Below are positions 5,633-41,989 of a stretch of 56,975 nucleotides of DNA, piece after piece. The notes under the pieces are model-generated. The model saw only the letters and a program-made list of their open reading frames with translations, searched no databases and was not told the origin of the DNA. How positions within the stretch are numbered: position 1 is the first letter of the stretch; the number at the start of each line of letters is the position of its first letter. The stretch covers positions 55,958-112,932 of the forward strand of contig PLOH01000118.1 of assembly GCA_003142955.1 (NCBI GenBank), given 5' to 3'. The position numbers and the translations under genes are program-made. The DNA is from Opitutia bacterium (GTDB taxonomy: Bacteria > Verrucomicrobiota > Verrucomicrobiia > Opitutales > Opitutaceae).

Positions 5633-7018
5633 ATGCGAAGTCCCACGCAGGTCCTGTACCGCCGTCTCGCTGCGCTGCTGGCGCTGCTCATCATCGCGGT
5701 AGCCGCGTGTCTCGGGCTGGCGTTTGTTGCGGCGCGCAACGCCAACCGCACGCTCAGGCATCTGGCCGGAGTCGAGCTCGAAGCTGCCCAGCTCGCCCGG
5801 CAGTTTCGCGGTGCCGTCGATGACCTGCATGGCGCGTTGCTGCGCATCGGGACGGAATCAGCCTACGACAGCGCGGCGGTCATCCAGCAACGCCGGCAGC
5901 GGCTAAGCGCTTGGCTGTCGGCCCGGCTCGCCGCCGCGCGGAGCCGCGAGGAACGACAGATTCTGCAGCAACTCTCGGCCGAAGTGCGTTCCTACTTTTT
6001 GAGGCTGGATGGCGTCGCCGCGCGCAGCGGGGGATCCGCCATGCCGCTCGATCGCGACACCGTCGTGATGTTCGACGATACCGCGAACCGCCTGCAGAGC
6101 ATGGCCGACGATTTCGCCGCCGTGCATGACGCCGATCTGCGCGATCTGCTGGCTGCATCGCTCGCCGCGGTGCAACAGATGAGGAACCTTGTTTTCGTCT
6201 GCGTCTCGGTGTTGATCGTCGCGATCGGAGTCGTCGTCGTCCTGCTCTATCGCGACGTCGTGCGCCCGCTCCGCGCGCAACTCTTCGAAAGCGCGGCGCT
6301 CCTCGCCCAGCGCGAGAAACTTGCCGCCCTCGGCACGCTCGCCGCCGGGGTCGCCCACGAGATCCGCAATCCGCTCACCGCCGTCAAGGCCCGGCTTTAC
6401 ACCCTGCGCCGCGGCGTTTCCTCACCCGGCGCAGTGGAGGATGTTCAGGCGATCTCCCAGGAAATCGACCGGCTCGAACGCATCGTGCGCGACGTGCTTG
6501 GGTATGCCCGCCCGGCCGATCCGAAGTTCAACGAGGTTGAACTCTCCGCCTGGCTGAAGGACCTCGCGGCGTTCCTCCAACACGATCTCGCGGCCAGCCA
6601 GATCACGCTCGCCGTCGAGGCGGCCGCGCCGGTGTCTGCGCGCTTTGACGTGGATCAACTCCGGCAGGTGGTGCTCAATCTGGTCCGCAATGCCCAGGAA
6701 GCGTTCGCCGGCCAGCCTGGCACCATCACGTTCACCCTGCGCCGCGAACGGTCGAAACTACGCGGCCGGCCGGCCGAAGTGGCGGTGCTGAGCGTGACGG
6801 ATAACGGACCGGGCATTCCCGCCAAGCATCAAGCCCGGCTGTTCGACCCGTTCTTCACGACGAAGGCGGCCGGCACCGGGCTTGGACTTTCGATCGTGGC
6901 CAGGCTCGTCGAGCAGCACGGCGGCGAAATCACCTTCCAGTCGGCCCCGCGCGCCGGCACGCGTTTTTCTGTACGCTTGCCCTTGGACTTTCCCACCCGC
7001 CAGACTCCGCCCGCATGA
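5633..7018 (+). CDS. Sensor histidine kinase, NtrB/ZraS-like
   Basis: 461 residues. TM1 (~10-33), a ~150-residue helical extracytoplasmic sensor, TM2 (~185-206), then the transmitter: H-box with His242 (AAGVAHEIRNPLTAVKARL), N-box (VVLNLVRNAQEAF), G1 (VTDNGPGIP), F-box (DPFFTTK) and G2 (GTGLGLSIV). The HEIRNPL form of the H-box is typical of kinases paired with sigma-54-dependent activators. Its stop overlaps the start of the NtrC-like gene (ATGA at 7015-7018), so this is a cognate pair. The stimulus is unknown; the periplasmic helical bundle suggests envelope sensing. Confidence 0.94.
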   Translation: MRSPTQVLYRRLAALLALLIIAVAACLGLAFVAARNANRTLRHLAGVELEAAQLARQFRGAVDDLHGALLRIGTESAYDSAAVIQQRRQRLSAWLSARLAAARSREERQILQQLSAEVRSYFLRLDGVAARSGGSAMPLDRDTVVMFDDTANRLQSMADDFAAVHDADLRDLLAASLAAVQQMRNLVFVCVSVLIVAIGVVVVLLYRDVVRPLRAQLFESAALLAQREKLAALGTLAAGVAHEIRNPLTAVKARLYTLRRGVSSPGAVEDVQAISQEIDRLERIVRDVLGYARPADPKFNEVELSAWLKDLAAFLQHDLAASQITLAVEAAAPVSARFDVDQLRQVVLNLVRNAQEAFAGQPGTITFTLRRERSKLRGRPAEVAVLSVTDNGPGIPAKHQARLFDPFFTTKAAGTGLGLSIVARLVEQHGGEITFQSAPRAGTRFSVRLPLDFPTRQTPPA

Positions 7019-8445
7019 GTGTGCCGTATCGCATCTGTCTGATTGATGATGACGCGGCGGCGCGCACGGCGCTGGAGCGCGTCTTTGCCGCTGAGGGTCA
7101 CGAGGTGGTGAGTTATCCCGACGGTCAACACGGGCTCGCGGCGGCGCTCGAAGAGGATTTCGACTGCGTGCTCACTGACCTGCGCATGCCCGGCGTCTCG
7201 GGGATGGAGTTGATCGACCGGCTGCGCGACGAACTGCCCAATCTGCCCGTTGTGCTGATGACGGCGCACGGCACGACCGAGACCGCGATCGAGGCGACGC
7301 GGCGCGGCGCCTTCGACTACATTCTCAAGCCTTTCGAGATGGAGGAATTGCTCGCGGTTGTCACGCCCGCCGCTGCCGCCGGCCGGCGCGGGCGCGAGAA
7401 AGTCGGCCTCGGCGGCGAAGAAAAGCGCGAGCTCGCCCTCGTCGGCCAGAGCCGGGCGATGCAGGCGGTTTACAAGGAGATCGGGCGCGTGGCGGAGAAG
7501 CCCGTCAGCGTATTGATCCTCGGCGAGACCGGCACCGGCAAGGAACTCGTCGCGCGGGCGCTCTGGCAGCACGGCGACCGGAAGGACAAGGCGTTGGTCA
7601 CAGTCAACTGCGCCGCGATTCCCTCGAACCTGCTGGAGAGCGAGTTGTTTGGCCACGAACGCGGCGCGTTCACGGGAGCCGAGGCGCGGCGGATCGGGCG
7701 TTTCGAACAGGCCCACCGCGGCACCCTTTTCCTCGACGAAATCGGCGACCTCTCGCTGGAGACCCAGGCCAAGCTGTTGCGCGTGTTGCAGGAACGGGTG
7801 ATCTCGCGTGTCGGCGGACGCGAGATGATTCCGGTGGATGTGCGCGTGTTCGCGGCCACGCACCGCGATCTGCCGGCCCTCGTGGCGGGCGGCAAGTTTC
7901 GCGAGGATCTTTGGTACCGGCTCAACGTCATTGTCATCCGGTTGCCGCCGCTGCGGGAGCGCCGCGAAGATATCCCGGAGCTGGTATCGTATTTCATCGC
8001 GCGGCACGGTCCGGAACTCGGCGGAGTCGCCTCGGTGCAGCCGGCAGCGGTGAAATTTCTCTCCGCCCAGCCGTGGCCGGGCAATGTGCGGCAGTTGGAA
8101 AACGTCATGAAACGCATGCTGCTCCTGGCTCACGGCTATGCGATCACGGAGGAACTGGTGCGCGCGGCGCTCATTCAGGGGCCGTCAGCCGGCGCCACCA
8201 CGGATGCGGCCGGACGCACGCTCGCCGCGCTATGCGAGGAGGCGCTGGCGGCGGCCCGCCGCGACCCGGGAGTCAGCGCCGTGACCTCGATGTTGTCCGC
8301 CGTCGAGCGCGAACTGCTCACGCAGGCGCAGGCGACGACCTCGGGCAACATCACGCAGATGGCGCAGATCCTCGGCTGGTCGAGGCTCACCGTGCGGGAG
8401 AAACTCAAGCTGCACGGTTTGCGACCGGAGCCAAGCGGGGCCTAG
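7015..8445 (+). CDS. NtrC-family sigma-54-dependent response regulator
   Basis: 476 residues in the classical order: receiver (1-120; DDD at 11-13, Asp55 in LTDLRMPG, Lys105 in LKPF), AAA+ domain (Walker A GETGTGKE, the sigma-54 contact loop GAFTGA intact, Walker B GTLFLDEIG, arginine finger region LRERREDIP) and a C-terminal Fis-type HTH (NITQMAQILGWSRLTVREKL). The intact GAFTGA means it should activate sigma-54 promoters. Two sigma-54-like -24/-12 sequences facing away from each other lie ~650-700 bases downstream, in front of the Tyr-rich protein gene and the T2SS operon, and are plausible targets. Confidence 0.95.
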   Translation: MSVPYRICLIDDDAAARTALERVFAAEGHEVVSYPDGQHGLAAALEEDFDCVLTDLRMPGVSGMELIDRLRDELPNLPVVLMTAHGTTETAIEATRRGAFDYILKPFEMEELLAVVTPAAAAGRRGREKVGLGGEEKRELALVGQSRAMQAVYKEIGRVAEKPVSVLILGETGTGKELVARALWQHGDRKDKALVTVNCAAIPSNLLESELFGHERGAFTGAEARRIGRFEQAHRGTLFLDEIGDLSLETQAKLLRVLQERVISRVGGREMIPVDVRVFAATHRDLPALVAGGKFREDLWYRLNVIVIRLPPLRERREDIPELVSYFIARHGPELGGVASVQPAAVKFLSAQPWPGNVRQLENVMKRMLLLAHGYAITEELVRAALIQGPSAGATTDAAGRTLAALCEEALAAARRDPGVSAVTSMLSAVERELLTQAQATTSGNITQMAQILGWSRLTVREKLKLHGLRPEPSGA

Positions 8446-9379: not shown

Positions 9380-9991
9380 ATGAGAACCTCACGTCCAATT
9401 TCTCCTCGCCCAGTGCCAGGTCCCTTTAGCCGCTTTGCTCCGCAGACCGCTGCTGCCTGGCTGCGGCGCGGAGCCTTCCTGATCGCCGCGACATCCCTGC
9501 TGGCGGTCACTTCCTCCGCGCAACAGGACGCACCGCCCGCGAGCGGTGCGTCCAGCGCCAACGCCGAGGCCAATGCGGGCGGGTGGCACGGCAATTTCAA
9601 CCGCGAGGACATGCAAGCGCGGATGCTAGCCAACCTGCGCAACCAATTCGAAGTCACCGACGATGCCGAGTGGAAACTCATCGCCGAGCGGATCACGAAG
9701 GTGATGGATCTGCGGCGCAGCGTCGGGGGTGGCGGGTTTGGCATGGGGGCATTTCGCGGCGGCGGCAACCAGGGCAATCGCCCGGCAGCCGCGGCCAATC
9801 CCGAAGGCGATGCGCTGCGCACGGCGCTGGAGGACAAGCTCCCGGATGCTGAAATCAAGGCCCGGCTCGAGCGACTGCGGGTGACGCGCAAGCAATCCGA
9901 GGCCAGGCTCGACCAGGCGCGCGAGGATTTGCGCGCGGTCCTGACCGTCCGCCAGGAAGCGGTGGCCGTGCTGGTGGGACTTCTGCAATGA
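9380..9991 (+). CDS. Periplasmic protein heading the T2SS operon
   Basis: 203 residues from the ATG at 9380. The N-terminus MRTSRPISPRPVPGPFSRF is followed by a hydrophobic signal (GAFLIAATSLLAVTSSA). The mature protein has a helical segment (MLANLRNQFEVTDDAEWKLIAERITKVMDLRR), a Gly-rich linker and a C-terminal charged helix (KQSEARLDQAREDLRAVLT), broadly like periplasmic LTxxQ/Spy-type helical proteins, though I cannot name a family. An upstream open frame back to 9134 lacks any signal and is not used. Its stop overlaps the gspE start (ATGA at 9988), so it belongs to the T2SS operon and may be an accessory periplasmic factor. Confidence 0.72.
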   Translation: MRTSRPISPRPVPGPFSRFAPQTAAAWLRRGAFLIAATSLLAVTSSAQQDAPPASGASSANAEANAGGWHGNFNREDMQARMLANLRNQFEVTDDAEWKLIAERITKVMDLRRSVGGGGFGMGAFRGGGNQGNRPAAAANPEGDALRTALEDKLPDAEIKARLERLRVTRKQSEARLDQAREDLRAVLTVRQEAVAVLVGLLQ

Positions 9992-11772
9992 ATCCTTCCG
10001 ACTCCGAATCCGCCGGAATCAATGAAGCCGCCACTGCCTTCTCCGAGTTGCTCGAGGCAATGATCGCGGCGCGGCAACTGACGGCTGCGGACGCCCGGTC
10101 GTTCCTCGCGCAAAAACCCGCGGACGAGCCGATCACCGAGGAGCGCGTGTTGCGCTGGCTGGCGGGCGAATATGGCGTCGGCTTTGCCACCCTCGACGAA
10201 CTGGAGCCGGACAAGCAGATCCTTTCCCTTTTTCCCGCGCGCCTGCTTCTCCGCGATGAACTGCTGCCCTTGCGCCGCATCGGCCAACAGATCGAGGTGG
10301 CCACCAGCCGCCTTTTTGCCACCCAGGGCCTCGATGGTTTGAAGGCCATCACCGGCCTGCGACTTCAGCCGGTGCTCGCTCCCACCGAGGCCATTCGGCG
10401 GGAGATGAAGAAACGGCTGGGCGTCGGCGCCGACACGATCGACACCCTCGACGAGGAAAGCGGCTTGCAGGTCGTCGACGACCGCGACGGAGTCAGCGAC
10501 ACGAATCTCGACGAGGCGGCCGAGGACGCTTCGATCATCCGCTTTGTCAATCAAGTGTTGAAGGACGCGATCGACCTGCGGGCATCGGACATCCACCTCG
10601 AACCGTTTGAAGACGAACTGCGGATTCGTTACCGCATTGACGGCGTGCTGCAGGAAGTCCCGGTGCCGGCGCAGGTAAAACGCTTTCAGCCGGCCATCGG
10701 CGCGCGCGTGAAGATCCTCAGTCATCTCAACATCGCCGAAAAACGCCTGCCCCAGGACGGCCGCATCAAGGTGCGAATCGATGACGCGGAGGTCGACATC
10801 CGCGTTTCCGTCATTCCGATGCTCCACGGCGAGGCGGTGGTGATGCGCCTCCTGCGCCAAAACGCCGCCTTGCGTGGCGTCAGCGAACTGGGAATGGGCC
10901 CGCGCGAATCTGCGTGCCTCCACCGGGTCCTCCAACTGCCCCACGGCATTGTCCTGGTCACGGGCCCGACGGGCAGCGGCAAGACCTCGACCCTCTACAC
11001 CGCTTTGCACGAGATCAATGATTCAGAGCGAAAGATCATCACGATCGAGGACCCGATCGAATATCAGCTCAAGGGCGTCAACCAGATCCAGGTCAACGAG
11101 AAATCCGGGCTGACGTTTGCGCGCGGATTGCGGTCGATCCTCCGCCACGACCCGGACGTGATTCTGATCGGCGAAATTCGCGATCATGAGACGGCGCAGA
11201 TTGCCGTGCAGGCGTCGCTGACCGGCCACCTGGTGTTTTCCACCCTGCACACCAACGATGCCGCCGGCGCTGTCACGCGCCTGGTTGACATGGGTGTGGA
11301 GCCCTACCTCGTGGCCTCTTCACTCGAGGCGGTGCTCGCCCAGCGCCTGGTCCGGCTCCTGTGTCCGCACTGCAAGGCCGTCGATGACTCTCCGCTGGCG
11401 CTCTCGTACAAGACGAGGATCGGGATTCCCGAGGAGACCACCCTCTACCGCGCCGTGGGCTGCCGCGAATGCCGCCAGACCGGTTACCATGGCCGTCACG
11501 CCATCTTCGAATGGATGGACACGAACGCGGAAATCCGCGAGATGGTCCTGCGGAATGCCTCGACGGACGCCATCCGCAACGCCGCCCGCCGAGCGGGGAT
11601 GACCACGCTGGCGGACGACGGCTGCCGCCTCGTGCAGGCCGGAGTGACGACCATCGAAGAAGTCCTGAGCGTCACGACGGTGGACGAAGCGGCGCCGCTG
11701 GTGCCCACCGCGAATCACACCGAGCCGAGCGAGAATCCGGCTCCCGCGCCGCGGGCGCGAACCGCCACCTGA
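9988..11772 (+). CDS. gspE: Type II secretion ATPase GspE
   Basis: 594 residues. Cytoplasmic hexameric ATPase that powers pseudopilus assembly. An N-terminal MshEN-type domain (1-150) is followed by the PilB/GspE core: ASDIHLEPFEDELRIRYRIDG, Walker A GPTGSGKT (~326-333), the Asp box, Walker B (ILIGEIRDHETAQIA) and the His box (GHLVFSTLHTND). Two CxxC pairs (LCPHCK and CRECRQTGY) form the zinc-binding C-terminal subdomain typical of GspE. The C-terminal ~35 residues are an acidic/Pro-rich extension. The start overlaps the previous stop by 4 bases; gspF follows after 14 bases. Confidence 0.97.
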   Translation: MNPSDSESAGINEAATAFSELLEAMIAARQLTAADARSFLAQKPADEPITEERVLRWLAGEYGVGFATLDELEPDKQILSLFPARLLLRDELLPLRRIGQQIEVATSRLFATQGLDGLKAITGLRLQPVLAPTEAIRREMKKRLGVGADTIDTLDEESGLQVVDDRDGVSDTNLDEAAEDASIIRFVNQVLKDAIDLRASDIHLEPFEDELRIRYRIDGVLQEVPVPAQVKRFQPAIGARVKILSHLNIAEKRLPQDGRIKVRIDDAEVDIRVSVIPMLHGEAVVMRLLRQNAALRGVSELGMGPRESACLHRVLQLPHGIVLVTGPTGSGKTSTLYTALHEINDSERKIITIEDPIEYQLKGVNQIQVNEKSGLTFARGLRSILRHDPDVILIGEIRDHETAQIAVQASLTGHLVFSTLHTNDAAGAVTRLVDMGVEPYLVASSLEAVLAQRLVRLLCPHCKAVDDSPLALSYKTRIGIPEETTLYRAVGCRECRQTGYHGRHAIFEWMDTNAEIREMVLRNASTDAIRNAARRAGMTTLADDGCRLVQAGVTTIEEVLSVTTVDEAAPLVPTANHTEPSENPAPAPRARTAT

Positions 11773-11786
11773 AACCGACTCCGCCG

Positions 11787-13109
11787 ATGCCCCATTTCTC
11801 CTACAAAGCGATGCAGCGCGATGGCGTCCTTACCGAGGGCGTTCTGGACGCGGGCAACCGGCCCGAAGCGTTGCGACAGGTCGAGCAGCTCGGGCTCCAG
11901 CCGATCCGGCTCACGGAAGCGGCCAACGGGGCTGAGCGAAAGGAATCGCCGGTTCTTGGCGCGCCCGGGAAGCCCGCAGCCACGGCTGGCGGCGCCGCAT
12001 CCGCGGGTGCGGATGGAGCCAGGGACCGCAACCCGCTGGCGTCCCTGAAAAGCTCGCTGGGAGTGAAGCAGAAGATTTCGGCGAGGGTTCTCGAGAACTT
12101 CACCCGGTTGCTATCGAGCCTGCTGGCCGCCGGCGTGCCGTTCAGCCGCGCGCTGATCATCCTCTACCGGGAAGCCACAGTACCGGTGGCCAAGGCCAAA
12201 TGGAAAGAGATCCACGATCTGGTGATCGACGGGATGTCCCTGTCCGACGCGATGGCCCGCTCGCCCGAGACGTTTCCGAGAGTTTATGTCGCGATGGTCG
12301 AGGCCGGCGAAACGGGCGGTTTTCTCGATGTCGTGCTCGCGCAGATCGCCGATTTCCAGGCGCGGGAAAAGGACATTAAATCGAAGGTGGTGAGCGCGCT
12401 GACGTATCCCCTCATTCTGCTGGTGCTCGCGGTGGGGGTGCTGATCTTCCTGATGGTCTTTTTCATTCCGCGATTCCAGCTCATCTTCAAGAGCTTCAAC
12501 GCTGACCTGCCCCTGCTCACGCAGTTGATCGTCCAGACGAGCCAGGCCGTGCGCGATTACGGGCTGTACGTCGGGGGGGCGGCCCTGGTGGCCGTCTTTT
12601 CCCTGCGCAGCTGGTTCAAATCCGCGAGCGGGCACCGGGCTTGGGAAGGGCTGGTCCTGCGCCTGCCCGTGGTGGGCCCGCTGCTGGCGCAGTTCGCGAT
12701 GGCCCGCTTCACCCGCATGCTCGGCACGCTGCTCGGCGCCGGCGTGCCCTTGATCAGCGCACTTAACGTGGCGCGGCGCTCGATCGGCAACCAGATCCTG
12801 GTCGACGCCGTTTCCGAGTCCATTGATCGCGTCAAGGAGGGCAAGGCGCTTGGCACCAGCCTCGCGAAAAACCACACCCTGTTTCCCAGCGCCGTCATCG
12901 AAATGATCTCGGTGGCGGAGGAGAGCGGCCGGCTTGACATCGAGCTCTTGCGGATCGCGAACGTGACCGAGGGGGATCTGGACCGGGAGCTCAAGACGGC
13001 AGTCTCACTGGCCGAGCCGCTGATGCTGTTCCTCATCGCCGGGCTCATCGGCACCATTTTCATCGGCATGGTCTATCCTATTTTCTCGCTCACCGATCAC
13101 ATCAAATGA
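11787..13109 (+). CDS. gspF: Type II secretion inner-membrane platform protein GspF
   Basis: 440 residues from MPHFSYKAMQRDGVLTEG, the usual GspF/PilC N-terminus; the open frame extends upstream into gspE but has no reason to be used. Two T2SSF domains: the first has LLSSLLAAGVPFSRAL and MVEAGETGGFLDVVL, the second MLGTLLGAGVPLISAL and MISVAEESGRLDIELL, each followed by transmembrane helices (LILLVLAVGVLIFLMVFFIP; LMLFLIAGLIGTIFIGMVYP). An Ala/Gly-rich insert of ~50 residues separates the N-terminal part from the first domain. GspF couples GspE to the pseudopilus. Its stop overlaps the gspG start (ATGA at 13106). Confidence 0.97.
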   Translation: MPHFSYKAMQRDGVLTEGVLDAGNRPEALRQVEQLGLQPIRLTEAANGAERKESPVLGAPGKPAATAGGAASAGADGARDRNPLASLKSSLGVKQKISARVLENFTRLLSSLLAAGVPFSRALIILYREATVPVAKAKWKEIHDLVIDGMSLSDAMARSPETFPRVYVAMVEAGETGGFLDVVLAQIADFQAREKDIKSKVVSALTYPLILLVLAVGVLIFLMVFFIPRFQLIFKSFNADLPLLTQLIVQTSQAVRDYGLYVGGAALVAVFSLRSWFKSASGHRAWEGLVLRLPVVGPLLAQFAMARFTRMLGTLLGAGVPLISALNVARRSIGNQILVDAVSESIDRVKEGKALGTSLAKNHTLFPSAVIEMISVAEESGRLDIELLRIANVTEGDLDRELKTAVSLAEPLMLFLIAGLIGTIFIGMVYPIFSLTDHIK

Positions 13110-13564
13110 CTCTCCCCATGAACCATCCGCCCAGACGCCCCAGGCTTTCGTCCCAGCGCGGTTTCACGCTCATCGAACTGATGCTCGTACTGGTTATTCT
13201 CGGCATCCTCGCCGGGCTCGTCCTGCCCAAGTTCTCCGGTCGCGCGGAGCAGGCGAAAGAGACGGCTGCGGTGACACAGATCGCCACGTTCAAGACCGCC
13301 CTCAGCGCCTACGAAGTGGACACGGGGAGTTATCCCAGGGAACAGGATGGGTTGAGGGCGCTGGTCGTCCAGCCCTCAGACGTCGGCGGCTGGCGCGGAC
13401 CGTATTTGGAAAGCGACGTCCCGCTCGACCCCTGGGGACACCCCTACATCTACCAGTATCCGAGCAAGCGCTATCCGAGCGGTTACGACATCATTTCGAT
13501 GGGGCCGGACGGGCAGCTCGGAACCGCCGATGACATTTACAATGCTGGCATCACGGGCAGATAA
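13106..13564 (+). CDS. gspG: Major pseudopilin GspG
   Basis: 152 residues. Type III (prepilin) signal: QRG^FTLIELMLVLVILGIL with cleavage after Gly19, Phe at +1 and Glu at +5. The body matches GspG: AYEVDTGSYP, EQDGLRALV, GPYLESDVPLDPWG and the C-terminal calcium-site loop SMGPDGQLGTADDIYN. A second in-frame ATG at 13118 would shorten the leader to a more standard length. Forms the pseudopilus shaft. The prepilin peptidase GspO needed to process it is not in this window. Confidence 0.97.
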   Translation: MTLPMNHPPRRPRLSSQRGFTLIELMLVLVILGILAGLVLPKFSGRAEQAKETAAVTQIATFKTALSAYEVDTGSYPREQDGLRALVVQPSDVGGWRGPYLESDVPLDPWGHPYIYQYPSKRYPSGYDIISMGPDGQLGTADDIYNAGITGR

Positions 13565-14093
13565 CGGCGGCCGCGAACGGACTGGCGGCTTCACGCTGAT
13601 CGAGCTGATCGTCGTGATGCTGCTGCTTGGAATCGCCGCCGCGCTGGTGGCGCCGCACCTCTCGCCCTTCTTCCGGGGGCGGGTCTTGAGCTCGGAGGCA
13701 AGACGCCTGCTCGCGTTGACGCGCTATGGCCAGACCCGGGCCGTGGCAGAGGGCGTGCCGGTGCTGCTCTGGATCGATGCGAAGCAGTCCTCCTACGGCT
13801 TGATCACCCAATCGGCATCGAGCGAGCCGGACGACCGGGCCTCGCGGTTCGCGGTCGATTCCACCTTGACGATCGAGGCGTTCGCGCCGGACCCGCTGCT
13901 GGCGTCGGAAGACAACGACGAAAGACTGGCGGTGCCGGACGGCCTGCCGGCCATCCGCTTCATGCCCGACGGTTTTTTCGACGAGGCCAGCATCGGCAAG
14001 ATCGTGATCCGCCAGGGTGCCGAGGGGGCGCTCGAACTTGTGCCGACGGCCAACCGGCTTGGATATGAGATTCTCCCCGTCAATCCGAACTGA
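13530..14093 (+). CDS. gspH: Minor pseudopilin GspH
   Basis: Up to 187 residues. Prepilin motif GG^FTLIELIVVMLLLGIAAAL near residue 20, followed by SSEARRLLALTRYGQTRAVAEG and a beta-rich body with LVPTANRLGYEIL near the C-terminus, as in GspH/FimT proteins. It overlaps the end of gspG in another frame; the start may be the ATG at 13530 or the one at 13542. GspH is thought to be a minor component of the pseudopilus. Order and size fit the standard G-H-I-J-K cluster. Confidence 0.92.
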   Translation: MTFTMLASRADNGGRERTGGFTLIELIVVMLLLGIAAALVAPHLSPFFRGRVLSSEARRLLALTRYGQTRAVAEGVPVLLWIDAKQSSYGLITQSASSEPDDRASRFAVDSTLTIEAFAPDPLLASEDNDERLAVPDGLPAIRFMPDGFFDEASIGKIVIRQGAEGALELVPTANRLGYEILPVNPN

Positions 14094-14523
14094 TGCCACC
14101 CGCCGCCATCGCGGTGGTTTCACCCTGGCGGAAGTGCTGGCCGCGCTCCTCCTGATGGCGATCGTCATCCCCGTCGCCCTGGAGGGCATGAGCATCGTCA
14201 GCCGGGCAGCGGTGCTGGGTCAGCGCAAAGTAGCGGCGATGCGCGTGGCCGAGCACGTGCTGAACGAACAACTGTTGCTGCTGAGCCAGGGCCAGGTGAT
14301 CGAGAATTCGGCCAGCGGAGTCGAGAACGACGGCGGCACGAATTACCCGTGGGCCCTGCAGTCGGAGACGTGGCCGCAGGACGCGATGACGCAGCTGACG
14401 GTGCGGGTCACCTTCACGGTGCGGGACACCCAATACGAGATGAAGGCGAGCACCTTGTTCGATCCCACGGCCGACACGCTCGGCACTCCCGGCAAGCCGC
14501 CGGTCGCCGCGGGCACATTTTGA
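14065..14523 (+). CDS. gspI: Minor pseudopilin GspI
   Basis: 152 residues from the ATG at 14065, overlapping gspH by 29 bases. Prepilin motif RGG^FTLAEVLAALLLMAIVIP at residues 17-19, then ALEGMSIVSRAAVLGQRKVAAMRVAEHVLNEQLL, the long N-terminal helix of GspI, and a short beta domain. GspI nucleates the pseudopilus tip with GspJ and GspK. An in-frame upstream ATG at 14017 is less likely because it makes the leader too long. Confidence 0.92.
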   Translation: MRFSPSIRTDATRRHRGGFTLAEVLAALLLMAIVIPVALEGMSIVSRAAVLGQRKVAAMRVAEHVLNEQLLLLSQGQVIENSASGVENDGGTNYPWALQSETWPQDAMTQLTVRVTFTVRDTQYEMKASTLFDPTADTLGTPGKPPVAAGTF

Positions 14524-15260
14524 TGCAACCGATCCCCGGCAACCGCCGCGCCGAACGCGGCTTCACGCTTCTGGAGCTCCTCATCGCTACCGGGGTTGCG
14601 GCGATTGTGTTGCTTGTCATTAACGGGACCTATTTCGGCGCGCTGCGGCTGCACAACGCCACGAATGAGCGGACCGACGCGACCCTGGTGTTGGAGCGCG
14701 CCTTGGGACTGGTGCAGCGCGATCTTGCAGGGCTGATGGTGCCCGCCGGCACGGCGACGCCGCCCGCCGGCACGTTCTCGGGACAATTCCAGGACAGGCC
14801 GACCGACTCGCTGACGCAGGAATTCGCCGCTACGCGAGTGAGCCCCGATCTTTACACGACCTCAGCCACGGTGGACGGATGGAGTCCGTTTTCCGAGGTG
14901 CAGGTCGTCGCCTACTTTCTCGCGCCGGCGACCGACGGCACCAATACCAAGAACCTGGTCCGCGCCGTGACGCGGAATCTCCTTCCCGCCCAGACGCCGA
15001 CCACGGACGAGCAGGTCTTGCTCACCGGAGTCACCGACGCCCAATTTGACTATTACGACGGCACTGAATGGACCGATACCTGGGATTCCACGGTCACGTC
15101 CGCGCTGCCGATGGCGATTCGATTCAGCCTGTCGGTCCCCAACCGCGACTCCAGCCAGTCTCCGCCGCATCCGGTCGAATTGGTGGTGCCGGTTCTGGTC
15201 GCCACGAAGACCAGCCAGGCGGCGGCCCTGGCGCAGGCCGCGGGAGGGACCGGATCATGA
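14523..15260 (+). CDS. gspJ: Minor pseudopilin GspJ
   Basis: 245 residues. Its ATG shares its A with the gspI TGA stop (TGATG at 14521-14525). Prepilin leader of 13 residues, ERG^FTLLELLIATGVAAIVLLV, then ERALGLVQRDLAGLM, a GspJ-like helix, and a beta-rich domain ending in an Ala-rich tail. GspJ forms the tip complex with GspI and GspK. Longer than many GspJ proteins because of Thr/Pro-rich loops (~80-110). Confidence 0.93.
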   Translation: MQPIPGNRRAERGFTLLELLIATGVAAIVLLVINGTYFGALRLHNATNERTDATLVLERALGLVQRDLAGLMVPAGTATPPAGTFSGQFQDRPTDSLTQEFAATRVSPDLYTTSATVDGWSPFSEVQVVAYFLAPATDGTNTKNLVRAVTRNLLPAQTPTTDEQVLLTGVTDAQFDYYDGTEWTDTWDSTVTSALPMAIRFSLSVPNRDSSQSPPHPVELVVPVLVATKTSQAAALAQAAGGTGS

Positions 15261-16657
15261 CGCCGGCGACACTTTCCTTTGCAGATCCGCTCCGGCGGCA
15301 GCGCGGGTCGGTGCTCATCATCGTGCTGTGGATCTGCCTCGGGCTGGTGGTGCTCGTTCTCTATTTCGCCGATTCGACCAATTCGGAGCTCCAGGCGGCG
15401 GCCAACCGCGTGGGTGAGATCGAGGCCCGGCAGGCGGTCGCAGCCGGAACGCGCTATACCGCCTATATTCTGAACAATTACGCGATTGATGGCGTGGTGC
15501 CCGACAGCGGCATCCCGCCCGAACCGACAGCCGACTACTATTCCGAAGCCCTTCAGGTCGGCGATGATCCCGGTGACCCACGATTCTGGTTCATCGGTCG
15601 CGATGTGAACAACCTGCCCACCACCGAGCCCGTGTTCTGCCTCGTGGACGAGGCGTCCAAACTCAATCTCAACACCGCGACGGCCACGATGCTCGCTGCG
15701 CTGCCGATGACAAACATGACGTCCGACTTTGCCGCCGCGATCGTGGGCTGGCGCACCCGGCAGTCGCAATCCAGCGGCAGCGCGCTCAGCAGCGCTTACT
15801 CGACGCTTAACCCGCCACGGCTCAACAAGGGGGCGCCGTTCGAATCGGTCGACGAGCTGCGGCTCGTTTATGGTGCGACGCTCGACCTCCTTTTCGGGGA
15901 AGATACCAACCTGAACGGCACCCTGGATCCCAATGAGGACGACGGCGACCAGTCTCCGCCCCACGATAACCAGGACGGGCAGTTGCAGCCCGGCATGTTC
16001 GAATATGTCACGGCCTTCAGCAACCAGCCGACTACGACCCGCACCGGCGGACCGCGGGTGGATATTTCGAATCTCGCGCCCAACAATCCCAATTTCCAAC
16101 GGTTAACCGCCCTGCTGACGAGGAAAGGGATCAGCGCGGAGCGCGGGGCCGGGATCCTGCAAAATCTCAACCGCGCACGCCCCCAGCGCGCCTTTACCAG
16201 CGGGGCGGACTTCATGCTGGCGAGCGGGATGACGGAGAGTGAATTCGCTCTCATCCACACGTCCATCATGAGCTTCTCGTCGGCGGGGCTAATCAATGTT
16301 AATACCGCGAGCGAAACCGTGCTGGCGTGCATTCCCGGAGTCGGGCTCAGCAGCGCGGCGAGCCTTGTGACCTATCGTCTGGCCAATCCGACTGCACTCA
16401 CGTCGCTGTTCTGGATCACCCACGTGCTCAGTCCCGCGGCCATCCGCCGCGCCGGGCCTTATATCACGGACCAGTCTTACCAATTCTCCGCGGATATCGC
16501 CGCGGTCGGGCGTTTCGGTCGCGGCTATCACCGCGAGCGGGTGGTTTTTGATACGACCATGGGCATGCCGCGGATTATTTATCGACAGGACCTCAGCTCC
16601 TACGGCTGGGCATTGGGCACGCAGGTCCGGAAAACCCTAAAGACCGCCAAACCATGA
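15257..16657 (+). CDS. gspK: Minor pseudopilin GspK
   Basis: 466 residues, larger than the ~330 of classical GspK. The leader RQRG^SVLIIVLWICLGLVVLVL lacks the Glu at +5, as is usual for GspK at the pseudopilus tip. Helical alpha-domain signatures are present: LVDEASKLNLNTA, then a second VNTASETVLACIPGVG with helix-hairpin-helix-like spacing. An acidic Asn/Asp-rich insert (DTNLNGTLDPNEDDGDQ) resembles a calcium-binding loop. The ATG at 15257 overlaps the gspJ stop by 4 bases. Confidence 0.94.
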   Translation: MTPATLSFADPLRRQRGSVLIIVLWICLGLVVLVLYFADSTNSELQAAANRVGEIEARQAVAAGTRYTAYILNNYAIDGVVPDSGIPPEPTADYYSEALQVGDDPGDPRFWFIGRDVNNLPTTEPVFCLVDEASKLNLNTATATMLAALPMTNMTSDFAAAIVGWRTRQSQSSGSALSSAYSTLNPPRLNKGAPFESVDELRLVYGATLDLLFGEDTNLNGTLDPNEDDGDQSPPHDNQDGQLQPGMFEYVTAFSNQPTTTRTGGPRVDISNLAPNNPNFQRLTALLTRKGISAERGAGILQNLNRARPQRAFTSGADFMLASGMTESEFALIHTSIMSFSSAGLINVNTASETVLACIPGVGLSSAASLVTYRLANPTALTSLFWITHVLSPAAIRRAGPYITDQSYQFSADIAAVGRFGRGYHRERVVFDTTMGMPRIIYRQDLSSYGWALGTQVRKTLKTAKP

Positions 16658-18066
16658 CCTGGAAAACCAAGAACCGGTTAAACTCTGTGCTCGGGCTGAC
16701 CTTGAGCGATGGCCAGTTGCGGGCGGTTCAGGTGGCGCGGTCCAAAGCGACGATCAAGGTCGTCAACTCCGTTTCGGCGGCCCTGTCGCTCGATCTCCTC
16801 GATGAGAAGCCCGAGTTGATCGGGCGGGAAATCAGAAATCATCTCGACGCCGCCGGAATTCACGAACACGCCTGTGTGGTTGCGGTGCCGGCGAACTGGA
16901 TCATGAGCCAGCACACGAAAACCCCGGTCCTATCGCCCGAGGACTTGGACAGTTTCCTGCAGCTCGAGGCGGAGAAGGGATTCCCCTACGACGCGGCACA
17001 ACTGCAGATTGCGCGCTCGATTCACCGCTCTGCCGACGGGACTTATGTGACGCAGCTCGCCGTGCGCAAGGATCGGCTGGAGCTTCTCGCCGCGGTGGCC
17101 AAGGCGGCCCGGCTGAAACCCGTGAGTTTTACGCTTGGTCTCGCTGCCCTGCCGGGCGTGATCGCATCTCAAGGAAAGGGCCGCATCACCGTGGCGGTCG
17201 AAAGCACGGGAGCGACTTTGCTGGTCTCCGCCGGCGGTGGAATTGCGGCCTTTCGCACCTGCGAGGCCGCGATCGAATCCGCTGCGGGGGAGAACCTGGT
17301 CGACGGCGGCGCAGTGTCCCGTGAACTGCGCGTCACGTTCGAACAGGTGCCGACCGACTTGCGCGGCGATCTGCGGGAACTCTGCCTGTGCGGTGACGCG
17401 AAGATGGTGGATCAGCTGGCCGGGAGTCTCCGCGAATGGCCGGACACGGTGGGACTGAAGGTCGAGACGGGCGGGCCGCCCGGCAATCGTCTGGCTGACC
17501 AGATCGCGGAAGGCATTGCCAACCACTGGCTGACGCCAACGGGCTCCGAGGTGGAGTTTCTGCCACCGCGCCCGGGGCGCTGGTCGTTGCTGATGGCGCG
17601 CTACAACTCGAAGCGCCTCGCGACGGCTGGACTGGCGCTGGGTGGCGCCGTCGTGCTGGCCCTGGTGGCTTTCGGATGGCAGGAAATCCGGCTCCAACTG
17701 CTCCGGTCTGAATGGCGCGGGATGCAGGTACGGGCCGGCGTTCTCACGGAGATTCAGGACCGGATCCGGGATTATCGACCGTGGTATGACCGCTCCTTTC
17801 CCGATCTCCGTATTTTGGCGCGCGTCACCCAGTGCTTCCCGGACAACGGCAGCGTGACAGCGAGGTCCTTCGATATTCACCACGTGGCAAATGTCACGAC
17901 TGTCAACATCACCGGCACCGCCCAGGACGACCGGGCGTTGTTGCGGACGCAGGATCAACTGCGCAAGGCCAGGGAAATTCAGGGACTGAAGGTCGAGTCC
18001 ATCAGCGGGAAGATCCCGGCCCAGTTCACCTTCACGTTTCGCTGGATTGGAGGTTCCGGATCATGA
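16654..18066 (+). CDS. gspL: GspL-like assembly protein (PilM-like domain fused to a PilN-like domain)
   Basis: 470 residues. Residues 1-310 are an actin-like PilM/GspL cytoplasmic domain (LGLTLSDGQLRAVQVARS at the start; AVESTGATLLVSAGG in the middle). One transmembrane helix follows (TAGLALGGAVVLALVAFGW, ~328-346), then a PilN-like periplasmic coiled coil and ferredoxin-like domain (LLRSEWRGMQVRAGVLTEI; TTVNITGTAQDD). This is the arrangement of GspL, which recruits GspE to the inner membrane. ATGA overlap with gspK at 16654 and with the GspM-like gene at 18063. Confidence 0.88.
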   Translation: MTWKTKNRLNSVLGLTLSDGQLRAVQVARSKATIKVVNSVSAALSLDLLDEKPELIGREIRNHLDAAGIHEHACVVAVPANWIMSQHTKTPVLSPEDLDSFLQLEAEKGFPYDAAQLQIARSIHRSADGTYVTQLAVRKDRLELLAAVAKAARLKPVSFTLGLAALPGVIASQGKGRITVAVESTGATLLVSAGGGIAAFRTCEAAIESAAGENLVDGGAVSRELRVTFEQVPTDLRGDLRELCLCGDAKMVDQLAGSLREWPDTVGLKVETGGPPGNRLADQIAEGIANHWLTPTGSEVEFLPPRPGRWSLLMARYNSKRLATAGLALGGAVVLALVAFGWQEIRLQLLRSEWRGMQVRAGVLTEIQDRIRDYRPWYDRSFPDLRILARVTQCFPDNGSVTARSFDIHHVANVTTVNITGTAQDDRALLRTQDQLRKAREIQGLKVESISGKIPAQFTFTFRWIGGSGS

Positions 18067-18611
18067 TGACGAACATGCCAAAGCGCCAACGCTGGCTCAT
18101 CCTGCTCATCGGGGCCCTTCTGCTCCTGCTGGCCTTGGACCGGATCGTTTTCACGCCCCTCGTCAACGTCTGGCAGGCCCGCTCGGTCGAGATCAAGCAG
18201 CTAAAAGGATCCGTGGCCAGCGGCCGAAACATCATCGCGCGCGACGCGCACCTGCGGCAGGTCTGGGCCGAGATCCAGTCAGGCGCGCTGCCCAGGGACC
18301 CGGCGCAATCCGAATATGAGGTGTTGTCGGCGTTCGAAAGTTGTGGCCGGACAAGCGCCATCGAGCTCGGATCGATCAAGCCTCTTTGGAAGCACGGCGC
18401 GAACGACGTTTACTCTCTGCTGGAGTGCCGGCTGGACGCCACCGGCACCCTGCCCGCGTTGAGCCGTTTCCTGTACGAACTGGAGAAATCACCGTTGGCG
18501 ATGCACGCCGAGTCCGTCGAACTGGTCTCCCGGGACGACACCGGTCAGCGGCTGACGCTCAGCCTCACGGTCACCGGTTTGCGGCTGACTCCGCTGGAGG
18601 GCAAACCATGA
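18063..18611 (+). CDS. gspM: GspM/PilO-like assembly protein
   Basis: 182 residues: a short basic tail, one transmembrane helix (WLILLIGALLLLLALDRIVF), a coiled coil and a small alpha/beta domain (YEVLSAFESCGRTSAIELGSI; LSRFLYELEKSPLAMHAESVEL) that matches the PilO/GspM fold. GspM pairs with GspL in the inner-membrane platform. The ATG ATG at 18063 overlaps the stop of gspL. Sequence similarity within this family is low, so the name rests on the topology, the PilO-like SRFLYELEKSPL motif and the operon position. Confidence 0.82.
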   Translation: MMTNMPKRQRWLILLIGALLLLLALDRIVFTPLVNVWQARSVEIKQLKGSVASGRNIIARDAHLRQVWAEIQSGALPRDPAQSEYEVLSAFESCGRTSAIELGSIKPLWKHGANDVYSLLECRLDATGTLPALSRFLYELEKSPLAMHAESVELVSRDDTGQRLTLSLTVTGLRLTPLEGKP

Positions 18612-19249
18612 AACGATGCCATGCGGCTGAGATCGCTACCCAGGCTGGAGGGCGCTGCGCCGTCAGCGCCGCTCAGTGCCATGGCGGTGACGGCGCACCG
18701 CCCTCCAGCAAGATCATCGTCCTCGCCGCCGCCATCCTCCTCGGCCGAAGTCTCGCCGCTGACGCCAACTCGCTGGCACCGCCGCCCGCCGCCGCGCCGG
18801 CCGCCGCCAGCTTTGCCGCCTTTCGATTGATCGGCGACTGGAATATTTTCGATCCAAACCGGGTAGGCCGGAAAAACAGCGAGCCCCCGCCGCCGGCCGG
18901 CGATACGATTTCCCTCGTCGGAACGATGCAATACGAGAAAGGCCTGTTTGCCTTTTTCGACAGCCCTGACAGCAGCTATCGCAAAGCGCTCCGCGTCGGG
19001 GACGCGATCGCCCAATTCACGGTGACCCGCATCCTCGCCGACGGAGTCGAGCTCACGCGCGACTCGAAGCGGTTGTCGCTGACGATCGGCCAGCAACTTC
19101 ACCGGCCGGAGGGCGGGCAGTGGACCGTGACCGCCGCCCCCCGGGTTGACCGGGCTCCGGCCGCCAACAACGCGCCGGCGATTCCGGCGGATGCCTCGGA
19201 TGTTCTCAGACGACTGATGGAGCAAAGACAGAAACAATTGAAACAATGA
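18608..19249 (+). CDS. GspC-like T2SS protein carrying an in-frame palindromic insert
   Basis: 213 residues. The middle (residues ~75-165) looks like a GspC/PilP homology-region domain: GDWNIFDPNRVG, DTISLVGTMQYEKGLFAFF, ALRVGDAIAQFTVTRILADG, a domain that contacts the secretin N0 domain. The C-terminal ~45 residues are Ala/Pro-rich and then charged. The export signal KIIVLAAAILLGRSLAADAN begins only at residue ~35 because bases 18644-18709, a 66-bp perfect-ended palindrome, are read as 22 extra codons in front of it. Overlaps gspM (18608-18611) and the first gspD gene (19246-19249) by 4 bases. No PDZ domain is seen. Confidence 0.75.
   Translation: MKRCHAAEIATQAGGRCAVSAAQCHGGDGAPPSSKIIVLAAAILLGRSLAADANSLAPPPAAAPAAASFAAFRLIGDWNIFDPNRVGRKNSEPPPPAGDTISLVGTMQYEKGLFAFFDSPDSSYRKALRVGDAIAQFTVTRILADGVELTRDSKRLSLTIGQQLHRPEGGQWTVTAAPRVDRAPAANNAPAIPADASDVLRRLMEQRQKQLKQ
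18644..18709. repeat. 66-bp palindrome inside the GspC-like gene
   Basis: Arms GCTGGAGGGCG (18644-18654) and CGCCCTCCAGC (18699-18709), with inner complementary stretches GCGCCGTCAGCGCC and GGCGGTGACGGCGC. It has the same TGGAGGGC ends as the intergenic element at 3677-3758. Its length is 22 codons, so the reading frame is preserved. Confidence 0.75.
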
Positions 19250-20496
19250 AAACCAATCTGCTTATTCCTACTCTGTGGCTTGGATTCGCCGCGCTCGCCG
19301 CAAGTGGCCGGGCCCAGCCAGCTCCGCCGTCGCCCGCAACGGATGGCGCCACGCCTGTTGCGGACACCGGTTCATCGGCGAATCCGGGGCCCGGACTGCG
19401 GTTCAACTTTCGCGGCGCGCCGCTCGAGACGGTGTTGAACTACCTGAGCGACGCCGCCGGCTTTGTCATCGTGCTCGAAACGCCGGTGAGCGGCACGGTG
19501 GACATGTGGAGCGCCCAGCCGGTTTCGAAGGAAGAGGCGGTGCAGCTGCTCAATGTCGCGCTGAACAAGAATGGCTACTGCGCCAGCGTCCATGGCCGGA
19601 ACTTGATCGTGACTTCGAAGGACGACGCCAAAAAACAAAACATCCCGATTCATACCGGCAATAACCCCGAGGAAATTCCGCTGACCGCCGACATGGTGAT
19701 GCAGATCATTCCGCTGCGCCACATCGACGCGACGCAGGCGGCAAAAGACCTCGGCACCCTGATGCCGGGTTCGGCGACGCTCACGGCCAACCAGGATAGC
19801 AACTCGCTCGTCGTCACCGATACGGAGATGAACATCCACCACATCGTGGAAATCGTGTCGGCACTCGACCGGTCGATCGAGACCGTCTCCACCACCCGGG
19901 TTTTCCAGCTGAAGAATGCGGATCCGATCGAGATGGCCCAATTGATCACGAATCTGTACGGGATCTCCACCCCGGCCGCCGGCAATGTCGGCCAATTCCG
20001 AGGGGGGCCGGGCGGCTTCTTTGGCGGGGGCTTTTTCGGCGGTGGTTTCGGAGGCGGGGGGGGAGGCGCTGGTGCCGTCGGCGCGGCCGGCCAAGGGGGA
20101 GGAGCCTTCCGCGGTGGCGCGGCAAACCAGACCGGAGCCGGCGCCCGCACCGGCGCCACCAGCGGTCGAAACACTCCCGTGACGGCGGTCGCAGATCCGC
20201 GGACCTTCTCGATTGTCGTCAGTGCCTCGAAGGACCAGATGCCGGACATCGCCGAGATGGTGGCCCGGTTGGATTACAGCTCAGCCCGTAAACAAAAGGC
20301 TTTTATCATCACGGTGCAAAATGCGGATGTGCAACAGGTGCAAACGGTGCTGCAAAATCTTTTCCAAAGCAGCGTCTCCCGGAATTCGAGCACGACGCAG
20401 GCTGATCCGTTGAGCTCGCGCGCAACCACCAACGCCCAGCCGACCAACGCCGCCCCGGTTCTCAATCTGGGCAGCAGTTCGTCGGCGGCCCATTGA
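19246..20496 (+). CDS. gspD: Split secretin GspD, periplasmic N-domain half
   Basis: 416 residues with a signal peptide (MKTNLLIPTLWLGFAALAAS). Domains in order: N0 (~48-130, LRFNFRGAPLETVLNYLSD), N1 (~150-205, MQIIPLRHIDATQAAKDL then NSLVVTDTEMN), N2 (~215-345, RVFQLKNADPIEMAQLI, interrupted by a ~60-residue Gly-rich loop, then TFSIVVSASKDQMPDIAEMV) and only the first half of N3 (FIITVQNADVQQVQTVLQNLF). It ends there with a Ser/Asn linker and a stop; there is no beta-barrel secretin domain. The rest of N3 and the barrel are encoded by the next gene. It overlaps the GspC-like gene by 4 bases. Confidence 0.9.
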   Translation: MKTNLLIPTLWLGFAALAASGRAQPAPPSPATDGATPVADTGSSANPGPGLRFNFRGAPLETVLNYLSDAAGFVIVLETPVSGTVDMWSAQPVSKEEAVQLLNVALNKNGYCASVHGRNLIVTSKDDAKKQNIPIHTGNNPEEIPLTADMVMQIIPLRHIDATQAAKDLGTLMPGSATLTANQDSNSLVVTDTEMNIHHIVEIVSALDRSIETVSTTRVFQLKNADPIEMAQLITNLYGISTPAAGNVGQFRGGPGGFFGGGFFGGGFGGGGGGAGAVGAAGQGGGAFRGGAANQTGAGARTGATSGRNTPVTAVADPRTFSIVVSASKDQMPDIAEMVARLDYSSARKQKAFIITVQNADVQQVQTVLQNLFQSSVSRNSSTTQADPLSSRATTNAQPTNAAPVLNLGSSSSAAH

Positions 20497-20526
20497 GACT
20501 CCATGCGGGGGCAGGCAAATCTTACA

Positions 20527-20575
20527 TCGAAATCGCGAGCAAGCTCGCTTCCTACAATTTGCACAAACACGTCTC
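20527..20575. repeat. REPIN-A half copy between the two gspD genes
   Basis: AATCGCGAGCAAGCTCGCTTCCTACAATTTGCA matches, in reverse orientation, one arm of the repeat found in full at 40351-40494 and 41848-41989. It lies in the 131-base space between the gspD halves. No T-run is present, so terminator function is doubtful. Confidence 0.75.
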
Positions 20576-20627
20576 ACCGGACCTTGCCCTGACGGCGGTC
20601 TGAAAACACGGGGAAAAGTCTACTCCC

Positions 20628-21842
20628 ATGACATCACAATTATTTCGAAGGTGGATTCGCAACCTCCTCTCCGCCGGCTTGATTCTTCTAGGCTCAAGCC
20701 AGGCCACGGCCCAACAGACGACGGGAGCAGCCCGCCCCGGCGGCACCGCGGGCGGGATTGGCGGTGGGCTCGGTGGCGTCATCGGCGGCGGTGGAGCGAG
20801 CAGCAACGCCAGCGCCACCCGACAATACACCAATTCGACGATGCTGGGCGATGCTCTGATCACCAGCGACATGGATTCACGCAGCCTCATCGTCGTCACC
20901 GATGATCAGACCTTCGAAGTCATCAAGACGATCGTCGCCGGCCTCGACCAACCCCGACCGCAGGTGCTGATCGACTGCGTCTTCGTCCAGGTCACTCATA
21001 CCAATGAATTGGACCTCGGGACGGAGCTGAACTACACGGGCCCTGACGGCATCGGCCTCAATGCCACGGGCATCGCCTCGACCCAATTCGGATTAAATGG
21101 AACCGCTCCGAACGGTTTGATCAATCAGGCCCCGGCGGTGGGCAGCACGCCGAGCCCGGCTTCGCCCAGCAGCAACGGCGCCTTCTATGCCCTCACCGGA
21201 AGAAACGTGAACGCAACGATCCACGCATTAGCGGCCAACAACAAGACGGAGGTCCTCTCCCGACCGACGATTCTGACGCGCAGCAACCAGCAGGCGACGA
21301 TCCTGGTCGGCGAACAGATTCCGCTCGTCACCGGTTTTACGCCAATTGCCGTTGGCAACCAGACCACCTTCGAGAATACCGTTGTGCAGACGGACATCGG
21401 CATCAGTCTCAAAGTGACGCCGTTCATCACGGCGGAAGGGAATGTCGAAATGATTCTGGATCCGGAGATCTCGTCGTTGAGCTCTGATACCGTCGCAATT
21501 GGCAATGGGGTGAATTCTCCCATCATCAACCTGATCTCGGCCGACACGGTAATTGTCACCCCCAACAACCAGACGGTCGTCATCGGCGGCCTCATGTCTA
21601 CGCAAACGACTCAGGTGGAGAACAAGGTGCCTCTGCTGGGCGATATTCCTTTGCTGGGCTATGCGTTCAAGTATAAGACAAAGAACAAGCAGAAGACCGA
21701 GCTCATCGTTTTTTTGACGCCGCACATCGTGCGCAGTCCGGATGACCTGTCGCGTTTGGCGAAGCAAGAAAACGCCCGATTGGAAATGATGCCCAAGGCG
21801 TTCGAGAAGAAAGAACTGAACCATTACGTCCCAAGCCCCTAG
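20628..21842 (+). CDS. gspD: Split secretin GspD, outer-membrane barrel half
   Basis: 404 residues with its own signal peptide (LSAGLILLGSSQATA). After a Gly-rich linker it resumes with the second half of N3 (DALITSDMDSRSLIVVTDDQ, TFEVIKTIVAGLDQPRPQVLI), then the full secretin domain: VLSRPTILTRSNQQATILVG, GEQIPLVTG, VVQTDIGISLKVTPFI, VVIGGLMSTQTT, VPLLGDIPLLGYAFKYKTK and ELIVFLTPHIV. This is the outer-membrane channel. It is in a different frame from the N-half and 131 bases further on. A GGGGAAAAG sequence upstream may serve as ribosome-binding site. No T2SS pilotin gene is visible. Confidence 0.93.
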   Translation: MTSQLFRRWIRNLLSAGLILLGSSQATAQQTTGAARPGGTAGGIGGGLGGVIGGGGASSNASATRQYTNSTMLGDALITSDMDSRSLIVVTDDQTFEVIKTIVAGLDQPRPQVLIDCVFVQVTHTNELDLGTELNYTGPDGIGLNATGIASTQFGLNGTAPNGLINQAPAVGSTPSPASPSSNGAFYALTGRNVNATIHALAANNKTEVLSRPTILTRSNQQATILVGEQIPLVTGFTPIAVGNQTTFENTVVQTDIGISLKVTPFITAEGNVEMILDPEISSLSSDTVAIGNGVNSPIINLISADTVIVTPNNQTVVIGGLMSTQTTQVENKVPLLGDIPLLGYAFKYKTKNKQKTELIVFLTPHIVRSPDDLSRLAKQENARLEMMPKAFEKKELNHYVPSP

Positions 21843-40350: not shown

Positions 40351-40494
40351 GCGTTTCCATGCAAATTGTAGGAAGCGAGCTTGCTCGCGATTCAGAGGTG
40401 GAGATCGCCTGCCAGCAGGCTTCCTACGCCGATCACTTGAGGGCATCACTTTTCACGATCGAGGTCGGCGTTTATTGAATTGAGACGGCTAAGG
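40351..40494. repeat. REPIN-A full copy (plus orientation)
   Basis: Two REP-like arms: TTGTAGGAAGCGAGCTTGCT... and ...GCCAGCAGGCTTCCTACGCC, then a conserved flank ending TTATTGAATTGAGACGGCTA. The reverse complement of 41848-41989 matches it at ~90% or more by eye along its length. The ndk stop codon (40491-40489) lies at its right end. Confidence 0.88.
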
Positions 40495-41847: not shown

Positions 41848-41989
41848 GTACCAATTAAATAGACGCCGACCTCGCTCGTGAAAAGTGATGCCCCCAAGTG
41901 ATCGGCGTAGGAAGCCTGCTAGCAGGCGATCTCCACCTCTGAATCGCGAGCAAGCTCGCTTCCTACAATTTGCATAGAAACGGCTCAGG
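41848..41989. repeat. REPIN-A full copy (minus orientation)
   Basis: Reverse-complement twin of 40351-40494, including both arms and the ~55-base flank (AATTAAATAGACGCCGACCT...). With that copy it brackets ndk and the S26-like gene. The gap 41665-42176 otherwise contains the small dyad at 42051-42076 and no gene. Confidence 0.88.

Follow-up and report, generated by a model that had tools for sequence, protein, structure and literature searches.

The type II secretion system (T2SS) operon in the window, the whole 56,975-nucleotide stretch of an Opitutia bacterium contig analysed here, encodes its GspD secretin as two adjacent genes, gspD1 and gspD2 (products D1 and D2), each with its own predicted signal peptide. 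The cut between them lies inside ring domain N3, and D1 and D2 are probably two subunits of a single T2SS secretin in which N3 is rebuilt between the chains. The secretin is split at the same place in 20 genomes from five families of the phylum, the source genome included.

Two adjacent genes encode the parts of one GspD

The features of the window to which we refer below are as follows.

9988-19249, + strand: T2SS operon genes E, F, G, H, I, J, K, L, M and C-like, in that order (Pfam; order conserved in relatives)
19246-20496, + strand: gspD1, N-terminal secretin half, 416 aa (ORF; Pfam; TIGR02517; 15 relatives in the family)
19246-19314, + strand: predicted Sec signal peptide of D1, putative cleavage site after GRA (simple score)
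19402-19593, + strand: N0 domain of D1 (PF21305, residues 53-116)
19894-20274, + strand: N2 domain of D1, with long Gly-rich loop (best PF03958 stretch, residues 217-343)
20290-20373, + strand: N3a, first half of N3 (beta1-alpha1), at the end of D1 (Secretin_N 3-34 of 69; invariant residues in the D1 alignment; boundaries approximate)
20497-20627, no strand: intergenic gap between gspD1 and gspD2, 131 nt (ORF ends; 4-48 nt in 19 relatives)
20531-20563, + strand: REP half-element in this gap, separate from the split itself (20-mer copy counts; paired copies elsewhere)
20628-21842, + strand: gspD2, C-terminal secretin half, 404 aa (ORF; Pfam; TIGR02517; relatives)
20628-20711, + strand: predicted Sec signal peptide of D2, putative cleavage site after ATA (simple score)
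20847-20963, + strand: N3b, second half of N3 (beta2-beta3-alpha2), near the start of D2 (Secretin_N 35-69 of 69, residues 78-112; conserved in the D2 alignment)
21225-21734, + strand: secretin barrel domain of D2 (PF00263, residues 200-369)

The two genes close the T2SS operon, which reads E-F-G-H-I-J-K-L-M-C-D1-D2, and the start of gspD1 overlaps the end of the C gene by 4 nt. L is weakly matched (PilM_2), and M and C, which lack a Pfam match, are named by their place in the operon and their conservation. The operon order is identical at 20 of 20 loci as far as these were fetched, a few distant loci lacking single operon genes at contig or fetch edges or through divergence. Just upstream of the operon lie a sensor histidine kinase and a sigma-54-type response regulator (5633-8445), a pair that may regulate it. 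The source genome contains three further one-piece secretins (L002, L003 and L004/L053), one of which (775 aa) is also hit by the N-part profile, and the split operon is therefore not the sole secretin system there.

In D1 a signal peptide is followed by N0, N1, N2, N3a and a Ser/Thr/Asn-rich tail. D2 has a signal peptide of its own, then a low-complexity linker that is mostly Gly-rich, N3b and the secretin barrel. Pfam analysis identified N0 in D1 (PF21305, E 3.4e-10, 40.1 bits against a cut-off of 27), together with three stretches that match Secretin_N (PF03958), and the Secretin domain in D2 (PF00263, E 4.1e-47); the N1-N3 ring domains and the barrel are all present, but spread over two proteins. 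On the 600 positions of the GspD model TIGR02517, D1 covers 1-298 and D2 covers 274-599. The curated cut-off of 351.35 bits is reached by neither half (153.9 and 250.3 bits), a warning for annotation pipelines, since the model misses both halves at this threshold. Sec-signal-like N-termini, with a hydrophobic core, a mostly positive n-region and A-x-A, are present on both genes in all 20 pairs, as judged by a simple score and not by a trained predictor.

The division falls within ring domain N3

The original prediction held that the secretin is made from two genes, each with a signal peptide and with the cut in N3, and this description is borne out by Pfam, TIGR02517, the fragment scans and the simple score. 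In the window, fragment scans with Secretin_N assign positions 3-34 of 69 to the tail of D1 and the complementary positions 35-69 to the head of D2, which places the cut between positions 34 and 35 and therefore in the alpha1-beta2 loop of N3. Neither half-domain match is strong by itself in the window (E 0.007 and 0.008); both are firmer in a distant relative, L113 (E 9.6e-5 and 2.3e-6). The D2 heads of two relatives, L040 and L049, gave no score in the Secretin_N fragment scan, and their N3b was assigned from the alignment. In the alignments of relatives, the N3a residues are kept at the end of D1 and the N3b residues near the start of D2.

When joined in silico, with the Gly-rich loop of N2 and the low-complexity tails flanking the cut left out, D1 and D2 align end to end with solved GspDs, for example with 5wln over 21-583 (E 1e-50). 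The prediction that the two halves together make one complete GspD thus holds along nearly the whole of the solved structures. Single-sequence structure models (AlphaFold without an alignment) failed, with pLDDT values of 31 and 36. The long Gly-rich loop in N2 of D1 is very variable in length and occupies the same topological position as the cut in N3; this loop and the Gly-rich linker of D2 would be consistent with a fission at a point where N3 had a long, disordered loop.

The arrangement is conserved in five families

The same two-gene layout, when sought in related genomes, was found in 19 others at a fixed operon position. Close D2 homologues, with 46-59% identity, occur in 15 other genomes of a 100-genome family sample. 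In each of these the same two genes are present, 15-45 nt apart. A D1 profile search of a phylum sample added four further families with the same arrangement, one genome each (L112-L115), and in a fifth further family (L116) the D1-type gene is cut by the contig end. D1 of L113, L114 and L115 carries an extra N-type region before N3a, so the length of the periplasmic part differs within this secretin lineage, unlike the position of the cut.

In a 388-genome phylum sample, a D2-type profile gave nine matches of at least 484 bits, all of them split, and the next-best match was a one-piece secretin at 216 bits. In the rest of the order only one-piece secretins, at no more than 160 bits, were found above threshold, apart from contig-end fragments. 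A scan of a named-genome collection with D2 returned two distant matches only, and plasmid records gave only distant matches (<60% identity), the annotated ones among the matches listed being ordinary GspD. We considered short secretin ORFs in other genomes as further independent splits and rejected them: L146-L149 are truncated where their stretch or contig ends, and L145 is another secretin, encoded in one piece.

Within the 100-genome family sample, the operon's own GspK is present in exactly the 16 split genomes, and in a genus sample of six the split system occurs in the source genome only. So patchy a distribution, 16 of 100 genomes in the family and one of six in the genus, suggests that the operon has been lost or transferred as a whole.

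The prediction that the halves lie in different reading frames, 131 bases apart, agrees with the ORF coordinates. Over the 20 pairs the gap ranges from 4 to 131 nt, and all three frame relations and all three stop codons occur. Since the frame relation varies across pairs, neither a sequencing frameshift nor recoding accounts for the split, and the varying stop codon likewise rules out programmed recoding.

The gap in the window also contains a REP sequence. The 20-mer CGAGCAAGCTCGCTTCCTAC has 19 exact copies in the genome, and none when read backwards; one copy lies in the gap. At two other sites in the window, 40368-40387 (- strand) and 41947-41966 (+ strand), the same 20-mer adjoins a second, inverted REP, forming a REPIN pair, and the single copy in the gap is therefore a half element, as had been proposed. 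It is a later insertion in the source genome and has no part in the origin of the split: the gaps of most relatives are too short to hold a REP, yet their genes are split.

The split has one origin and both halves are under purifying selection

In a tree of 84 secretin sequences, the 20 D2 proteins form one clade (100/99) on a long stem, with a single change in all 200 bootstrap trees. The main groups are the same in the trees of D1 and D2; long branches call for caution with the distant rows. Among the relatives sampled, none of those with this operon has the one-piece gspD that the original prediction had named as a possible refutation. The dN/dS ratios between relatives are 0.08-0.32 for both genes, and in pairs with the window 0.21-0.30 for D1 and 0.40-0.42 for D2; many dS values are near 1, and those ratios are rough. 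Both halves are under purifying selection, which completes the check on dN/dS that had been proposed (0.08-0.42 overall).

D2 of the window is more divergent than its counterparts, with 52-54% identity to three close relatives as against 72-77% among these. The drop in identity is smaller for D1 and several other operon genes of the source genome, and the divergence of D2 there may reflect relaxed or shifted selection.

The split is best read as one ancient fission and an old, maintained design, with no broken gene. The view that it evolved and is not a dead gene thus stands on one origin, five families, a fixed operon position and the second signal peptide. An ancestral one-piece GspD would have been divided once, in the alpha1-beta2 loop of N3, and the signal peptide of D2 may have been captured at an internal start, or may stem from a tandem duplication followed by complementary loss.

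Proposed assembly of the secretin from two chains

At the end of the operon, D1 and D2 would be translated as neighbours, and their signal peptides suggest that both chains are exported separately by Sec. D2, with N3b and the barrel, would then form the outer-membrane pore, and D1, with N0-N1-N2-N3a, the periplasmic rings. N0 is the GspC-binding domain in known systems, and D1 would dock GspC through it. N3 would be completed by non-covalent pairing of N3a with N3b, giving a hetero-oligomeric channel. Because the N3a residues are kept in D1 and the N3b residues in D2, completion of N3 by two chains is the best reading.

In a one-piece secretin, the N rings, or N module, assemble without help from the rest, and N3 is assigned on structural grounds to the C module (PMC5646246). 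These properties make a secretin of two chains plausible. With N3 grouped with the C module, the natural division would be the N2-N3 linker, and a cut through N3 is less obvious. This position of the cut, the weak half-domain matches and the more divergent D2 of the window are points against the two-chain reading; with these included, we hold it to be probable.

D2 might instead form the pore alone, as in reduced secretins, with D1 a separate periplasmic adaptor ring to GspC and the half-N3s unpaired. The ability of N modules to self-assemble without the C domain (PMC5646246) would allow this, as would the mitochondrial GspD, which makes pores without any N domain (PMC8134430). N3a and N3b are kept and complementary in all relatives, whereas one or both should have decayed if they were unpaired, and we consider such an arrangement unlikely.

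A further reading, which we hold distinctly unlikely, is that through the split the pore and the N rings can form with different copy numbers, for example 12 D1 to 15 D2. If true, this would be a built-in answer to the symmetry mismatch between the secretin and the inner-membrane platform, which is debated for one-piece secretins (PMC10550240; PMC6882859). Unequal numbers are disfavoured because N3 is cut internally, and some N3 domains would stay incomplete.

Partial gene replacement, with D1 a remnant and D2 recruited from another system, has a precedent in RhcC1/RhcC2 of rhizobial T3SS (PMC3459982). It is very improbable for D1 and D2, since the two halves cover neighbouring stretches of a single GspD model, complement each other at one site inside a domain and give trees that largely agree. 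The match of each half to GspD and the agreement of the trees led us to reject a foreign C part of the rhizobial type.

A broken gene, whether a gspD in decay or a frameshift from sequencing or assembly, might be read from the different frames, the REP insertion in the gap and the more divergent D2 of the window, but is practically untenable given the layout shared by 19 other genomes (one on a single contig of 4.15 Mb, G071), the second signal peptide and the purifying selection on both halves; with the same cut in 20 genomes, whose gaps range from 4 to 131 nt and whose halves show each of the three frame relations, the frameshift artefact that could have overturned the original prediction is excluded, and pseudogene and frameshift alike are refuted for the lineage.

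If D1 and D2 do form one secretin, this would be a bacterial T2SS whose secretin consists of two different chains sharing a ring domain. The two could be separately tagged, titrated or removed, and would offer a tool for examining the stoichiometry needs of the secretin parts, how N3 seals the prepore and how a 15-fold channel meets a 6- or 12-fold platform.

Comparison with known secretins

The one-piece GspDs (XcpQ, PulD and those of E. coli and Vibrio) share with D1 and D2 the N0-N1-N2-N3-secretin order and the T2SS operon, and the joined halves align with them end to end. D1 and D2 differ in being encoded by two genes with two signal peptides, in the cut N3 and in an operon that ends D1-D2; no single polypeptide here spans the curated TIGR02517 model.

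Split secretins are already known from rhizobial T3SS and mitochondrial T2SS. For a bacterial T2SS, we found no description of a secretin in two parts in the open-access literature that we searched. Rhizobial-type T3SS secretins are split as RhcC1/RhcC2, and a Tad secretin was the source of the C part (PMC3574062, PMC3459982). These, and likewise HrcIIC1/HrcIIC2, resemble D1 and D2 as a bacterial secretin in two genes, one for the N part and one for the pore part (PMC3574062, PMC3459982). RhcC1 and RhcC2 belong to a T3SS, their genes lie apart and RhcC2 comes from a Tad secretin, whereas D1 and D2 are adjacent halves of one GspD cut within a domain. The D1-D2 operon encodes a T2SS and is not a T3SS gene cluster, and the best match of D2 is the T2SS GspD model (3.7e-74), with GspD structures ranking before RcpA.

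The mitochondrial T2SS has GspD and separate GspDN1-3, of which GspDN2 and GspDN3 are halves of an N domain, and is likewise a case of a T2SS secretin divided into several polypeptides (PMC8134430). There the genes are eukaryotic, N0 is absent, the N part is in several fragments and GspD lacks N3, whereas D1 and D2 are encoded by two adjacent genes of a bacterial operon and N0 is present in D1. In D1 and D2, bacteria would have a counterpart of the GspD fragmentation seen in mitochondria.
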